Shown here piece by piece: positions 6,500 to 15,657 of a stretch of 54,541 bases of DNA (within the stretch, counting starts at the first letter, position 1; every line of letters starts with the position of its first letter). The position numbers and the translations under genes are program-made. Below the pieces are notes generated by a model. That model was not told the origin of the DNA, did not search any database, and was given only the letters and a program-made list of their open reading frames with translations. The stretch covers positions 1 to 54,541 of the IMG/VR virus record IMGVR_UViG_3300022602_000128, one strand, 5' to 3'. This stretch comes from a virus.

Positions 6500-7087
6500 T
6501 TATATGTTATCCTGTGTTTTTTTCTTTATTTGGGCTAACCGTCTTGCTTCAGTCCAAGGCTTTCCCTTGCGTTCTTCAGATTGCTTTGCCTTTATATCCC
6601 AATATTTTTTAGCATACTCTGGATCTGTTGCTAATTTATATGCTCTAGTGGCGGCAGATTTTTTATTCCTACCATCATCAGGCCTGCCTAAATTAGCGAG
6701 GCGTATCTTTTCAGCGTGCTCTGCACTTTTAGGTTGTCTATATTTTTCTTTCTGTTCTTCTGTTCGAACTTTTCCCAAATTACTTTGTTTTATTTTTTCT
6801 TTAGTTTCTGCAGAGTGTTTCCAACCTGCGCGGCACGCCCATTGATTTATTTTAATATTTTCCAAAATACCACCATCAATCTTACGACCATACTTAGTTA
6901 TAAGATCTTTTTCGTACTGTTTGGCTTCTTCGTTGGATAAACCGTCTTTGACAATAATTCTTCGATCCTTGGGAGGAAGTTCTACTTTATGTCCGGCATT
7001 GATTCGATCACCAGTACCTTTACCAATATAGTACGGGTTTCCGTCTTCGGTTAAGTACTGGTATACATAAAATCTATTGTCCGACAT
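6500..7087 (-). CDS. GIY-YIG homing-type endonuclease with NUMOD3 motif
   Basis: A 195-residue free-standing endonuclease. The N-terminal GIY-YIG nuclease signature is seen as VYQYL...PYYIGKGTGDR (about 7-27), with an Arg and the later YEKDLITKYG helix completing the nuclease. A DNA-binding NUMOD3-like segment follows (HSAETKEKIKQSNLGK, about 91-106), repeated more loosely as SAEHAEKIRLANLGR. Such enzymes spread themselves into phage genomes lacking them. It sits between the tape-measure-like gene and the portal, in the same direction, with its stop codon abutting the portal ATG, so it has inserted without breaking either neighbour. No intron-like RNA surrounds it. Confidence 0.85.
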   Translation of the reverse strand: MSDNRFYVYQYLTEDGNPYYIGKGTGDRINAGHKVELPPKDRRIIVKDGLSNEEAKQYEKDLITKYGRKIDGGILENIKINQWACRAGWKHSAETKEKIKQSNLGKVRTEEQKEKYRQPKSAEHAEKIRLANLGRPDDGRNKKSAATRAYKLATDPEYAKKYWDIKAKQSEERKGKPWTEARRLAQIKKKTQDNI

Positions 7088-7121: not shown

Positions 7122-9839
7122 TTATGCGGTTGCATTTAGAAGTTTCTGAGTCAGATCTTTGTGATCTTTAACATGGCTCACAAGTTCTTTGCTTTGGTCT
7201 AGGTGTTGTTGCATGATACCGCTTAATTGATTGATACTTTCTGTCATGTCAGCACGGGGTGTTGCAGATCCCGGAAATGTTAGTTCAGTTTTGGTAGAAG
7301 CAACTTTGACATCCTTGAGACTGTTGGTCAACGAATCCGTCATTTGTTTTACCATTGTCGACATCATAGCATTGATTGGGGAATTGCCAGTGGCCAAATC
7401 CATTTGATTTGATAATCCGTTTATTGATGTAACTAAGTCTGCATGGTCTTTGGCAGTGGGCATGGCAGTCATCATTGTTTTTAGATTATCCGACATGTCG
7501 GCAGTTTGCTTGTTAACTAATCCCAGTAAGTCGTTATGGTCCCGCATTGCGCCGTTGTTGGTAATTGACGCTGACAAGTCACCCAAGTTAAACGTGTCTT
7601 TTATAGTACGATTAAAAGAATTTATAATATCAGTTAGATAACTGGGTGCAGTATTCTGCTTAGAGTCTTGCATTCCCTTCATTGATTCGTTCATTGATGT
7701 TAATATACTAGAGAATCCGCCCATGTTAATGGGGATAGATCTTCCGTCTGGTAATGGAACGTGTGCTTCGTTCATGCCGTTTTCGCTGACCAATGCCACT
7801 TGACCCTTGGGCGTTGATATACCGCCGTCAGCAAAGCCCAACATGTCAGATAATTTAGATCCGGCTGCCATACCAATTGCGCCGCCTTCCAGGGCTCCCA
7901 ATGGGGACAAAGCACCGCCTGATACCACTGCGGCGCCTGCCCCGCCTATAGCCCCACCAATCAAAGTGCCAGCACCAATTGTTGTTACTTTGCCAATTGT
8001 TTTTAATGTGCTCTTTATAGTGCCCCAAACTCCGCTTTCGGCACCCTCACCATTGCCAAGACCAACATCTTTTAGCATTTTTCTAACACCACTGAGCATT
8101 TCCTTGGACACGTTGGCAAAGTCTTTGATAGCCGGAGTCAGTTCATCCTGTAGAGCAATTTTTAAATTTTGAGCCGCAGTTTCTGCACCCATTACAGAAT
8201 CCTGCAATTTACCGTTGGCACCCGCGGCTGCTTCTGTTGCATTAGTAGCGGTGTCTAAATTCTTTTCAGTTAGTTTGTATTGTGCTTGTCCCAAAGAATC
8301 AGCACTCTTGGCCAAGTTATTGAGTCCGTCAGCGCCAGCGATTGCACCAGTGGATATTGCTTTGGCAGTGTCACCATAGCGGCTTTCGAAGTTGTCGTTT
8401 GCTCTAGCAAAACCACCAGTCAAGTCTTTAAGGCTTGAATTTCCTCGTTCTAGACTTTGTGCGAATTCTCGGCCAGCATCTGCTTGGCCCAATACGTTTG
8501 CAGACACATCGGTAACTGCCCCACCCAACACTGTGGCTTGTATGGCGGCACGTTGTTGTGTTTCATCCATCAATGCCAAACTTGCTCGCACTCTTGCTGG
8601 CAAGCCTGGATCATTTGTGCGTTTGGCTATTTCATTTACTTTGGCAAAGAAAGCATATTGCTCTGCTTGTTTCTTTGCTTGATCCATCTTGGCTTTGGCA
8701 TCCTCGCCCATAATGTCAGCAACTGTTCTTATGTTCTTGGCCATCTCGGTAGTGGCCTGGGCTACTTGTGCATTGGTGGCAGTGCCGCCAGTTCTCTTCA
8801 AGTCCGATGTCATTTGAGCAACCAAGTTTGCTTGATCCTCAAAACTATAGCCTAGATTTAATAATTCATTTTGTAAACTTTTACCGCTCTTGCCTGTTTG
8901 TGTTGCTAGGTTACTAGTGACTCCGGCAACAATTTTTGCTCCACCGGCAACAGTGTAGCCCGATTCAGCCAATAAGCCCGCATTGTTCTTGATTACGTTT
9001 GAAAATTGATCTACAGTAAGTCCTGCTTGACCCGAATACTTGCGTAAATCATCCATGCCCTGTGCAAATGTAGCACCACTGGCTGTTGCATCATTAAATG
9101 CTTTGACTGTTTTTTCTACTTCTTTGCTTAATACTTCTACACCAAACTTGGCCAGTTTGCTGGCATTTTCTCCCAGTGCACCCAGTAATGGGCCAACAAC
9201 TGAAACAATATTACCAAATCTCTTAATCGCCGGACTGGCGCTGGTTGACATTATTTGCCCAAATGTGCCCGCGGCTTGACCGGCGGCTGCGGCTGTTTGC
9301 CCCTCCATGTCATATTGGGCCTGCATCAGTCCACTGGCTAACTCTATACCAGACTGACCGCTTTGTAGTCCCTTGACAAAAGCACCAACGCCCTGCACAC
9401 CAGACGATGCCACTTTACCCAATGCTTTGCCAAGATTCTTAGTGGTTTCAATTGTGTCGGATTTTACTGCTTCGTCTCTAAGTGCATTGCGTTTGGCCAA
9501 CAGTTCGTCTCGGGCTTTTTGCTCGTCACGAGTCTTTGCGTTTTTGGTAGCCTCTTCAATTGCCTTGTCTAGTGCATCCAATTCATCCTTGAAGTTGGAC
9601 AAGGCATTGGGTGTTGGCGACAACATTTTACTAAAACTTGTGGTTTTTTCGTTGGCTTTCTTTAAAGAAGCAGTATATCGTTCAGTTTGTTTAGACAGGG
9701 TGTCTAAATCTGCGGCTAACTCATCAATGGTTTTGCCTGCCCCGTAAACAGCACCACCCTTGGCTCCACCAGACTGCCTACCAGCAGTACGCATCTCGTC
9801 CAAGAGGTTCTTGAGTAGGCCTTTGATTTCGTCATCCAT
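7122..9839 (-). CDS. Tail tape-measure-like protein
   Basis: A 905-residue protein with the general look of a tail tape measure: a helical N-terminal half rich in K, A, E and D, a central hydrophobic Gly/Ala segment (IGAGTLIGGAIGGAGAAVVSG, about residues 625-645), and the FADGG...VALVSENG..EAHVPLPDGRSIPI block (about 673-706) that is very common near the C-terminus of phage tape measures. Tape measures set tail length and are kept soluble by chaperones. T4's own tape measure, gp29, is 590 aa and is not obviously similar. The gene lies upstream of the portal, transcribed leftward from a TATAAATA promoter at 9888-9895, and back-to-back with the gp26-like gene. Alternative: another internal tail or virion protein. 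Identification rests on composition and the C-terminal block. Confidence 0.72.
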   Translation of the reverse strand: MDDEIKGLLKNLLDEMRTAGRQSGGAKGGAVYGAGKTIDELAADLDTLSKQTERYTASLKKANEKTTSFSKMLSPTPNALSNFKDELDALDKAIEEATKNAKTRDEQKARDELLAKRNALRDEAVKSDTIETTKNLGKALGKVASSGVQGVGAFVKGLQSGQSGIELASGLMQAQYDMEGQTAAAAGQAAGTFGQIMSTSASPAIKRFGNIVSVVGPLLGALGENASKLAKFGVEVLSKEVEKTVKAFNDATASGATFAQGMDDLRKYSGQAGLTVDQFSNVIKNNAGLLAESGYTVAGGAKIVAGVTSNLATQTGKSGKSLQNELLNLGYSFEDQANLVAQMTSDLKRTGGTATNAQVAQATTEMAKNIRTVADIMGEDAKAKMDQAKKQAEQYAFFAKVNEIAKRTNDPGLPARVRASLALMDETQQRAAIQATVLGGAVTDVSANVLGQADAGREFAQSLERGNSSLKDLTGGFARANDNFESRYGDTAKAISTGAIAGADGLNNLAKSADSLGQAQYKLTEKNLDTATNATEAAAGANGKLQDSVMGAETAAQNLKIALQDELTPAIKDFANVSKEMLSGVRKMLKDVGLGNGEGAESGVWGTIKSTLKTIGKVTTIGAGTLIGGAIGGAGAAVVSGGALSPLGALEGGAIGMAAGSKLSDMLGFADGGISTPKGQVALVSENGMNEAHVPLPDGRSIPINMGGFSSILTSMNESMKGMQDSKQNTAPSYLTDIINSFNRTIKDTFNLGDLSASITNNGAMRDHNDLLGLVNKQTADMSDNLKTMMTAMPTAKDHADLVTSINGLSNQMDLATGNSPINAMMSTMVKQMTDSLTNSLKDVKVASTKTELTFPGSATPRADMTESINQLSGIMQQHLDQSKELVSHVKDHKDLTQKLLNATA

Positions 9840-9865
9840 ATTTAAAATTCCAGTTATTTTTAGTC

Positions 9866-9873
9866 TATAAATA
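9866..9873 (+). promoter_or_regulatory. Late promoter box TATAAATA (rightward)
   Basis: Exact late -10 box 42 bases before the gp26 ATG. RNA would start near 9879-9880 and carry the AGGAT ribosome site at about 9895-9899. Confidence 0.75.
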
Positions 9874-9887
9874 ATTATAGTATCATA

Positions 9888-9895
9888 TATTTATA
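9888..9895 (-). promoter_or_regulatory. Late promoter box TATAAATA (leftward)
   Basis: On the minus strand this is an exact late -10 box, predicted to start RNA near 9881-9882 for the tape-measure gene at 9839. It faces the rightward box at 9866-9873, so each transcript runs through the other promoter. Confidence 0.7.
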
Positions 9896-9907
9896 GGATT
9901 CAAATAC

Positions 9908-10750
9908 ATGTCTGAGCAACAATCAAACCCTTTAGCCAACTTCTTTCGTCAGCCCGCAATCTACATCAAACTGCCCAGTGGGGGCAAATGGTGGAAAGAC
10001 GGCAGTTTGGAACTGACTGTGACCGGGGAAATAGGGATTTATCCCATGACCACGAAAGATGAAATAACACTAAAAACACCCGACGCACTAATGAATGGTC
10101 AGGGTGTAGTGGATGTTATTCAAAGTTGTGTGCCATCAATTAAAAATGCGTGGGATATGCCCAGTATTGATGTGGATGCAGTACTTATTGCCATACGCAT
10201 TGCCAGTTATGGTGAAAACATGGAGTTTGAAAGCACTTGCCCGCATTGCAATGAAGAAAACAAACACGAGATTGATCTCAAAGGGCCACTAAGTGGAATC
10301 CGATCACCGGACTACAGCCAAACAGTAGTATACAAGACATTGAAAATCAAATTGCACCCACAGAACTATTATGCAGTTAATAGATCCAATCGAGTTAACT
10401 TTGAGGAACAAAAGATATCCGACGCACTGAACATGGGCAAAGATGTCGATCCCGAAGTCAAAGTCAAGTATTTGACTGAGAGCATGAGCAGACTAATCGA
10501 ATTGGGCTTGGAATCAATAACTGCCAGTGTGGAGTATATTGAGATGGAAGATGGTGCTAGGATTGACAACAAGGCGCATATCAAGGACTTCTTTAAAAAT
10601 GCCGAAGCCAGCGTGGTGCGTTTAGTCCAAGACAAACTCAGCGATCTAGCAGAACAAAGCAAGATACAACCAGCAAAACTACAATGCATGGAGTGCACAA
10701 AACCCTATGAAGTGGCATTGTTGTTTGATTACTCTAATTTTTTCGGTTAA
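9908..10750 (+). CDS. 26: gp26-like baseplate hub/tail assembly protein (T4_baseplate family)
   Basis: A 280-residue protein of the T4 gp26 family, which takes part in assembling the central baseplate hub. Typical features are the N-terminal IYIKLPSGGKWW (about 17-28) and the EITLKTPDALMNGQGVVDVIQSCVP block. Two CxxC knuckles, C111/C114 (CPHC) and C260/C263 (CMEC), could bind one zinc. The gene has its own late promoter and a clear AGGAT ribosome site. Its 3' end carries a T TTT TTC heptamer and overlaps a small ORF in the -1 frame, so most ribosomes would make the 280-aa form and some a 356-aa fusion. Being divergent from the tape measure gene, it may serve as that protein's chaperone in the manner of lambda gpG/gpGT (inference). 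Confidence 0.82.
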   Translation: MSEQQSNPLANFFRQPAIYIKLPSGGKWWKDGSLELTVTGEIGIYPMTTKDEITLKTPDALMNGQGVVDVIQSCVPSIKNAWDMPSIDVDAVLIAIRIASYGENMEFESTCPHCNEENKHEIDLKGPLSGIRSPDYSQTVVYKTLKIKLHPQNYYAVNRSNRVNFEEQKISDALNMGKDVDPEVKVKYLTESMSRLIELGLESITASVEYIEMEDGARIDNKAHIKDFFKNAEASVVRLVQDKLSDLAEQSKIQPAKLQCMECTKPYEVALLFDYSNFFG

Positions 10751-10825
10751 GGCTTTTATCAATAACTGATGATGCCGAACTCATTAAGTTCTTGGAACGA
10801 TATGAGAAACAGGTAAAAGCCTTAA
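10738..10825 (+). promoter_or_regulatory. Predicted -1 ribosomal frameshift signal
   Basis: Slippery heptamer T TTT TTC at 10738-10744, in the correct X XXY YYZ register for the gp26 frame (codons TTT and TTC at residues 278-279). The gp26 stop TAA lies at 10748-10750. Bases 10747-10758 are perfectly complementary to 10814-10825 (12 bp), with smaller nested pairings inside (10780-10784 with 10802-10806, and GTTC/GAAC within). The -1 frame has a stop at 10735-10737, so it opens exactly at the heptamer. The helix starts only two bases beyond the heptamer, closer than usual, so its lowest pairs would have to melt. Confidence 0.65.
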
Positions 10826-10977
10826 AGCATGAAGCACTTACTATGGCATGGCATATGAGAGGTGGGTTAACTTATGCCGAAGTGATGTCAATAGGAGATC
10901 AAGAAAGAACTATTATATCAGATATAGTCAAAGATCACATAGAAGCAACTAAAAAATCAGGACTTCCTTTCTTCTGA
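10744..10977 (+). CDS. gp51/chaperone-like extension, made by -1 frameshift from gp26
   Basis: In the -1 frame after the heptamer there are 77 codons. They encode a helical, charged segment with a WHMRGGLTYAEVM block and a TKKSGLPFF end, resembling the C-terminal domain that frameshifting adds to phage tail-assembly chaperones. If translated alone it has no good start: only a TTG at 10792 (61 aa, no ribosome site) or an ATG at about 10841 (44-46 aa). The simplest reading is a 356-aa gp26-extension fusion. Position right after gp26 corresponds to T4 gene 51, a hub assembly factor, but this ORF is much shorter than T4 gp51 (249 aa). The alternative is a separate small protein from an unusual start. 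Confidence 0.62.
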   Translation, partial: RLRLLSITDDAELIKFLERYEKQVKALKHEALTMAWHMRGGLTYAEVMSIGDQERTIISDIVKDHIEATKKSGLPFF

Positions 10978-11016: not shown

Positions 11017-11464
11017 AGATGTCTAAAGACATCTGTTGTTGCGCTATCGCTTACAACATTATTCTTTAATTATTGATTAAAAACTTTACGAAGTAAAGTA
11101 AAGGCCATTCATCCAGAACAAGCAGTCACACTTTGCCCGATAAACGGGCAAAAAATGATTTCATCCGAGACGCACAATCATCAGCGTTAGGGCATTGCAG
11201 AGGCGGTTGACCTGTACCTCGAGCCCCGTCTTTTATTCAACGGCAGTTAATATAATATACGCAGACATACTATATTAACCTGTGGGAGTTACCCACTCAT
11301 TTAGCCTTGGTTTAATTCTTTTCAAATAGCAAAACCGGTTGTATGAAGGCATATCCGATCGTCGTCCTGTTAAGGATAGTTGCTAAGTGCTCTGTACGGC
11401 GCAGAGTCTTCCGTCCGAGTGACACGTAGTCCTCTTGTCTTGGGCACACGTTTTTAACTTGTGC
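11017..11464 (+). ncRNA. Candidate large structured RNA (unclassified)
   Basis: This non-coding stretch of about 490 bases (10978-11469) contains many perfect hairpins in close order: 11017-11023/11028-11034; 11035-11039/11053-11057 enclosing GCG/CGC; 11083-11089/11093-11099; 11132-11139/11145-11152; a nested arm GGGC 11190-11193 with GCCC 11223-11226 around GAGG 11200-11203 with CCTC 11217-11220; 11246-11254/11271-11279; 11282-11286/11292-11296; 11309-11313/11332-11336; 11352-11356/11374-11378; 11390-11394/11402-11406; 11444-11448/11460-11464. G-U pairs can extend two helices only if the plus strand is the RNA, which weakly favours that strand. Size and context recall the phage-borne GOLLD and ROOL ornate RNAs, but neither was recognised by sequence. 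No promoter was identified; read-through from the gp26 promoter is possible. Confidence 0.5.
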
Positions 11465-11469
11465 GAGTC

Positions 11470-11904
11470 TTAACCGTTTAATTTGTTTAGTATGTGGGAG
11501 CCATGGACACGGACTTGTATATGTCCGTTATAGTAATCTGTAGATTCTAATACTCTATTTGTAAATTGCTCGCGGGCTTCAATGTAACTACATTCTGCCT
11601 TGCTTTTGCAATAATAGAGTATTTCTCTGGTAAAGTTTTCGGTGCCATGAGTTTGAACGTCTTTGTTGAGTTGGTCGTTAGAGCCATAATATGTAAGCCA
11701 ATCGGAATCTACTTTTGATCGTATTTTCTTCTTTTTCTTGGTGCCGTTCTTGAGTTTTACAGTTTTGTAAGATGTTTTTGCGAATTTCGCTAGTTTTTTG
11801 CCTATGTACTTTTTGCCAGATAGATTATTAGTGATAAGATACACAAAACCCACACAGTCTTCGGGAAGTTCCTGTACAGGTGAGTTCTGAAATATCCATG
11901 TCAT
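11470..11904 (-). CDS. GIY-YIG endonuclease-like protein
   Basis: A 144-residue single-domain protein. GFVYLITNNLSGKKYIGKK (about 19-37) gives the GIY-YIG core, and later residues (the EAREQF segment) include the Glu expected for metal binding. A lysine-rich loop (NGTKKKKKIRSK) and a WLTYYGSN block precede it, a form seen in Seg-like and hypothetical phage nucleases. It lacks an obvious NUMOD DNA-binding tail, so specificity is unclear. It lies downstream of gp46 in the same direction, and its stop codon adjoins the structured non-coding region, which could be its target or co-mobilised neighbour (inference). The role may be homing, or repair and resolution. Confidence 0.78.
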   Translation of the reverse strand: MTWIFQNSPVQELPEDCVGFVYLITNNLSGKKYIGKKLAKFAKTSYKTVKLKNGTKKKKKIRSKVDSDWLTYYGSNDQLNKDVQTHGTENFTREILYYCKSKAECSYIEAREQFTNRVLESTDYYNGHIQVRVHGSHILNKLNG

Positions 11905-14775: not shown

Positions 14776-15657
14776 TTAGTCGTCAAAATTTGATTCGCCA
14801 CCACTGCTATATCCGCCACCCATACCCTGTCTGGTGTAGGAAGGATTCAATCCATTCATTTCCAAAATATCATCACGTATGTTTTGATTACGTTTCTCAA
14901 TGTTTAACACTCTAGTAAATGAGTTAGTGACTGCGGCTGTGTAATAAGCAAAAGGATTAGCCGACTTTGATTCATCAAATCTCAATCCTATGTAAGTCAG
15001 TTGTAGCAGTGCTTGACTACGCATCTCATCGTTATAAGTATATCCACGCCAATTGCTACGTGTAGCATAACGTTCGCACAGTTTCATAAACATATGAGCC
15101 AACTTCTTAGTCATATTGCCATGCATCTTGTTGAACTCGCCAGTGGCCAAATCACCTTTCCAATGACTCTTGCCCACTAATATGGGGCTTCCCTCTTCAT
15201 CAACTTTAAAATGCTGAAAGGGCGGAAAGTTTACTTTGACATATTTGGTGTGCGTCAAATCCATTTCATCGTATTCTGTGAGCAATGGATCTTCGTCATC
15301 TTCAATTTCCAAGGCAGTCATGCGTGCTTTTTTGGTTTTAGCATCATCTACAGGAATATGATCCCAAGTCATAACTCTAAATACAACATCTGTTGCAGGA
15401 ACATCCTTGAGTTTAATCTCAAATTCGTCTAATTTACGCTTAACTCCGTCAGCAGTTGCGGCTTCGTGGGCTAGTTTAGCCAGTCTCTCGGCACGTAATT
15501 TTCGTGCTTCTAGGATGTTCTTTTTGTTAATTTTCCCAATATCGGGCAGGATCATATCATAATCTGCATACTCGGGCTGGGTATAAGTGCAGTATGTTGT
15601 CTTGCTTTTGTGTATCTCTTTAAGTATATCTTTGTTATTTAGGTAGTTATGTTTCAC
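14776..15657 (-). CDS. 55: Late-transcription sigma factor (gp55-like)
   Basis: A 293-residue sigma-like protein that directs host RNA polymerase to NATAAATA late promoters. The diagnostic half is C-terminal: FNKMHGNMTKKLAHMFMKLCERYATRSNWRGYTYNDEMRSQALLQ-type sequence (about 175-220), then FAYYTAAVTNSFTRVLNIEKRNQNIRDD, as in T4 gp55 sigma-2-like helices. It is longer than T4 gp55 (185 aa) because of an N-terminal extension. The start is GTG at 15657, supported by AAGGA six bases upstream. The C-terminal GMGGGYSSGGES tail is followed by FDD; an acidic/hydrophobic tail is what binds the sliding clamp in T4 (inference). Upstream lie both a sigma70-like promoter and a GATAAATA late box. Confidence 0.9.
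   Translation of the reverse strand: MKHNYLNNKDILKEIHKSKTTYCTYTQPEYADYDMILPDIGKINKKNILEARKLRAERLAKLAHEAATADGVKRKLDEFEIKLKDVPATDVVFRVMTWDHIPVDDAKTKKARMTALEIEDDEDPLLTEYDEMDLTHTKYVKVNFPPFQHFKVDEEGSPILVGKSHWKGDLATGEFNKMHGNMTKKLAHMFMKLCERYATRSNWRGYTYNDEMRSQALLQLTYIGLRFDESKSANPFAYYTAAVTNSFTRVLNIEKRNQNIRDDILEMNGLNPSYTRQGMGGGYSSGGESNFDD

Follow-up and report, generated by a model that had tools for sequence, protein, structure and literature searches.

A probable programmed −1 frameshift joins a gp26-like protein to a chaperone-type extension beside a divergent tape measure gene

The viral DNA analysed here (the window; 54,541 nucleotides, IMG/VR record IMGVR_UViG_3300022602_000128) contains a gp26-like gene whose 3′ end was identified as a probable programmed −1 ribosomal frameshift site. 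We read the locus, with a probability of roughly 0.9, as a tail assembly chaperone (TAC) pair of which the long member would be made by ribosomal slippage. The frameshift strategy itself is known in tailed phages and has already been proposed for T4-like ones. The RNA stem and the divergent tape measure layout are the least described parts of the locus; neither is described in passages of PMC10885494 and PMC12846349, which is weak evidence of absence. Coordinates are given in Table 1.

The gp26-like reading frame ends in AAT TTT TTC GGT TAA, so that T TTT TTC falls in the X XXY YYZ register of the gp26 frame. The first-pass annotation had this exact register right; its remark that the heptamer lies ‘eleven codons from nothing but the end of gene 26’ makes no sense, and its distance of six bases to the stop codon is correct if counted to the end of the stop, which itself begins 3 nt (one codon) past the heptamer. 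In the −1 frame a stop (10735–10737) directly precedes the heptamer, and the frame is then open until the TGA at 10975–10977. This gives 79 codons including the two Phe codons and, as had been claimed, 77 beyond them. The earliest ATG, GTG or TTG in this frame is a TTG at 10792, upstream of which no Shine–Dalgarno-like sequence was found, in agreement with the earlier statement that the extension has no good start of its own. By sequence anatomy, a short and a long form would share one start. The sequence T TTT TTC is not rare by itself (eight occurrences in the window versus 16 expected); the case for a frameshift site is based on the register of the heptamer, its place and its conservation.

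Table 1 Features of the putative tail assembly chaperone locus
Feature	Position	Strand	Evidence
Tape measure protein, 905 aa, presumed client	7122–9839	−	phrog_167 tail length tape measure protein, E 2.3e-8
TATAAATA, T4-type late-promoter-like box, 34 nt upstream of gp26	9866–9873	+	Suggestive only
TATAAATA, late-promoter-like box for tape measure gene	9888–9895	−	Suggestive only
gp26-like gene, putative short tail assembly chaperone form (TAC-N), 280 aa	9908–10750	+	PF12322, phrog_150, tblastn
Slippery heptamer T TTT TTC	10738–10744	+	In register; conserved across homologues
−1 frame extension (putative TAC-C), 79 codons + TGA, FFRLRLL...GLPFF	10738–10977	+	Frame, alignment, model
6-nt spacer, heptamer to conserved stem core	10745–10750	+	Commonest helix start in homologues
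0-frame stop TAA ending short form	10748–10750	+	Sequence; also homologue stop positions
Conserved stem core, 5′ arm GGCUUUUA	10751–10758 (full perfect arm 10747–10758)	+	Fold, pairing, covariation
Conserved stem core, 3′ arm UAAAAGCC	10814–10821 (full perfect arm 10814–10825)	+	Fold, pairing, covariation

In the proposed mechanism, slippage would be the less frequent event: most ribosomes would stop at the TAA at 10748 and release the 280-aa short form. Some, slowed by the RNA stem about 6 nt downstream, would halt while U UUU UUC occupies the P and A sites; the two Phe-tRNAs would slip simultaneously and re-pair one base back (UUU UUU), and the −1 frame would be read through to 10977 to yield a long form with about 357 residues (...NFF-RLRLL...LPFF). 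If the pair works like lambda gpG/gpGT, the product of the neighbouring divergent tape measure gene would be coated by the short form, and tail tube subunits would be brought in through the extension of the long form.

Homologues were gathered from IMG/VR and from isolate phages, and the 99 distinct sites considered below are those with a heptamer of the general class. A tblastn search with the gp26-like product returned 127 phage records. The motif T TTT TTC, in the 0-frame X XXY YYZ register, is kept at 97 of the 99 sites, the others having one T TTT TTT and one T TTA AAC, while other Phe-Phe pairs in the same genes have the T TTT TTC context in one of 38 cases. The distance from the heptamer to the 0-frame stop is 3–33 nt, most commonly 12 or 3. 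Holders of the motif comprise metagenomic relatives, jumbo phages (PA5oct, BF, 121Q, GAP32, RaK2, XbC2, 7t3, SCTP-2, Vibrio 2.275.O, Atu_ph07 and Phosso) and cyanophages (S-CAM1 and P-RSM6). Chance origin of the site was ruled out by this conservation. Sequencing error was ruled out as well, the identical frame break being seen in many independent contigs and isolate genomes. The comparison of homologues had been proposed in the first-pass annotation as a check, and both the heptamer and the helix core, the latter with compensatory changes, proved to be kept. The arrangement that it had set against a frameshift, namely homologues with no heptamer in which the second gene has its own start, did not turn up in this lineage. 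The separate full-length gp51 of T4 resembles that arrangement and fits the chaperone reading.

No heptamer of the class is present in five further homologues, in which the next frame is at +1; their phages infect the Gram-positive hosts Bacillus, Listeria and Streptomyces, and Flavobacterium and Microcystis. In these five loci (L050–L054; the Bacillus phage is SP-15) the second frame follows the gp26-like gene at +1 (or −2) and closely precedes a long ORF; in three of the loci this ORF is annotated as tape measure. Judged from the reading frames, another type of frameshift may possibly operate in the same pair in these phages.

The extension is conserved as a protein from the shift site on. 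The motifs FFRxRLL and WYMRGG are kept, FFR is invariant in a 19-sequence alignment, and the entropies at −1 codon positions 1, 2 and 3 are 1.06, 0.64 and 1.53, third positions varying most. An AlphaFold2 model of the extension is mostly helical (pLDDT 86.6). No named family was found for it in Pfam or PHROG, a pattern scan of viral contigs with the extension alone found no relatives, and a fold search against the viral library gave nothing significant. Expression of the extension as a separate small gene, whether through reinitiation after gp26 or from a start of its own, is very unlikely. Separate ORFs are indeed annotated here in several phages, and six homologues have an ATG at extension codon 3, near the gp26 stop; in the isolates Atu_ph07 and Phosso this ATG overlaps the stop, and reinitiation there is possible. 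However, no start codon position is conserved among the 99 distinct sites, 17 of which are without any ATG, GTG or TTG in codons 2–33; the conserved stretch already starts at FFR, before any start codon, and a separate gene leaves the invariance of the heptamer unexplained. Isolate records give the extension as a hypothetical protein or as gp51, or omit it. The P-RSM6 ‘gp51’ (L056:3166–3357), though annotated as a gene of its own, overlaps the −1 frame opening at the heptamer T TTT TTC that lies at the 3′ end of gp26, and its start is likely to be mis-annotated.

Downstream of the heptamer, the perfect 12-bp inverted repeat 10747–10758/10814–10825 was confirmed exactly as first described. A repeat of at least 12 bp occurred in none of 300 dinucleotide shuffles of the 100 nt past the heptamer, and a perfect 12-bp repeat occurred in one of 540 contig segments of 100 nt. 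The fold of 10747–10825 has a z of −4.4; for the 90 nt past the heptamer in 98 homologues the mean z is −2.9, versus −0.1 in upstream control stretches. The 8-bp core formed by GGCUUUUA with UAAAAGCC starts 6 nt past the heptamer. Among the homologues the long-range helix most commonly starts at +7 (27 of 97 sites), with the rest within a few nucleotides, and at least seven long-range pairs are present at 70 of 97 sites. Roughly a quarter of the sites have no stem or a different pairing, and in distant relatives among the jumbo phages and cyanophages the heptamer persists and this stem is missing. A downstream structure at 5–9 nt is found in the lineage of the window, not in all distant relatives.

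Pair counting was performed on an 83-sequence alignment. The 12-bp helix gave 85 double-changed cells versus 46 in shuffles, and a score of 0.216 versus at most 0.108 in slid controls. On the gp26 protein tree, columns 21/77 changed jointly on 13 branches (1.45 expected) with the pair kept in 13 of 13, and columns 18/80 on six branches (1.19 expected) with the pair kept in six of six, the expected numbers being rough parsimony values that take branches as independent. Columns 18 and 21 each fall on the third, mostly silent position of a leucine codon, and their partner columns are second positions; silent changes thus track amino-acid changes, which points to selection at the RNA level. Within the helix of the window the outer four pairs (columns 10–13) are poorly conserved and the core is conserved. 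RNAalifold gave no consensus structure on the full 83-sequence alignment because part of the set pairs differently or has no stem. On this sequence evidence the stem is a real candidate for the stimulator of the shift.

The same element bears on whether the long form could arise by transcriptional slippage on the T run in place of ribosomal frameshifting, which we regard as highly improbable. There is a run of six T, and the relative XacN1 has seven, but RNA polymerase slippage usually needs longer runs. Moreover, the run keeps to six T and a closing C, in X XXY YYZ register, and base-paired RNA follows at ribosomal spacing.

The 280-aa product belongs to the T4 gp26 family (PF12322, T4_baseplate; E 1.8e-18, 67.5 bits against a curated cut-off of 24.5) and also matches the baseplate hub family phrog_150 (E 1.4e-20). 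Its AlphaFold2 model is confident (pLDDT 86.8) and resembles predicted structures of T4-like baseplate hub proteins, among them the ones from Bacillus phage SP-15 and Aeromonas phage 25. A Foldseek search of the PDB with the model gave nothing at E 0.001, and a sequence search of solved structures gave chance matches only. HK97 gp13 (PDB entry 2ob9) was among the structural matches of the model, with 100 of 107 residues aligned and a Z of 6.1 that is tied with unrelated chains; the resemblance to this chaperone is within background, and gp26 is far larger.

The tape measure gene adjoins gp26 in divergent orientation, and an equal layout is found at 67 of the 99 homologous sites. As in lambda gpG/gpGT, the locus would give a short product and, by −1 slippage shortly before the first gene ends, a long one, beside the tape measure gene. 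In contrast to lambda, the tape measure gene is on the opposite strand and the heptamer is T TTT TTC; the likeness proposed here is one of architecture. The proposal of a lambda-like chaperone pair at gp26 is supported by the heptamer, the stem and the tape measure neighbour.

Several further elements were observed around the locus. The divergent gap (9840–9907) holds two of the four TATAAATA boxes of the window, one per direction; five such boxes are expected in the window. A late sigma factor gene is present at 14776–15657. The tape measure and chaperone genes lie between two homing-endonuclease-like ORFs, at 6500–7087 and 11470–11904 (both − strand), whose matches include phrog_7363 and phrog_314. 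Between the extension and a GIY-YIG-like gene lies a non-coding, well folded stretch that matches Rfam RF01718, Polynucleobacter-1 RNA (11324–11469, − strand; 95.7 bits against a cut-off of 37).

In T4 itself gp26 and gp51 are separate divergent genes, whereas the window has a single gene with a probable −1 frameshift. Alignment of the T4 gp51 C-terminus with cyanophage extensions and those of Rhizobium phage was better than chance (0 of 1000 shuffles better), and no match was found between gp51 and the extension of the window itself. The N-terminal part of gp51 is weakly similar to the gp26 profile (hhalign E 0.0045). These comparisons fit T4 gp51 being the long form in one frame, as a separate gene. 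Vladimirov, Gautam and Davidson (2022, Virology 566:9–15) reportedly linked gp26/gp51 to tape-measure chaperones and identified the TACs of T4. The connection between gp26 and tape-measure chaperones, raised in the first-pass annotation, is thus no longer a surprise, having been made already in 2022, as known from papers citing Vladimirov et al. PMC10885494 (PRFect) cites that work for T4-like phages with a short and a long gene in place of frameshifting, and PMC12846349 (Adele) gives poly-T as a known −1 signal in TAC genes of T4-like phages. The TAC of Pseudomonas phage Adele and of Vandenendeviridae/Andersonviridae, which we compared by description, shares with the present locus the −1 frameshift, a conserved poly-T and an extension of more than 200 bp without stops; it differs in its GTTTTT motif, and no stem is described in the passages of PMC12846349.

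The chaperone role is proposed on the basis of the protein family, the tape measure neighbour and this published T4-like work, as far as it is reflected in PMC10885494 and PMC12846349. A real frameshift whose products act in baseplate hub assembly, not in tape measure chaperoning, is unlikely. gp26 is classically a hub or hub-assembly protein and is listed as a hub assembly chaperone, but the short/long architecture and the tape measure neighbourhood fit the chaperone kind, and TACs of T4 have been identified in work cited in passages of PMC10885494 and PMC12846349.

The locus thus provides a strongly supported recoding site that was overlooked by standard annotation. It supports taking gp26 and gp51, traditionally labelled ‘hub assembly’ proteins, as tape-measure chaperones, and it offers a large comparative set in which a frameshifted chaperone pair can be set against a two-gene pair as in T4. 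More tentatively, and with somewhat less than even confidence, we suggest that a large T4-related lineage has retained a frameshifted gp26 chaperone together with a dedicated RNA stimulator, a covarying stem of at least 8 bp around about 50 nt of further structure, and a divergent tape measure gene, while T4 has a full-length gp51 instead. If this is true, both the RNA element and the fact that some branches have lost or re-paired it would be new.
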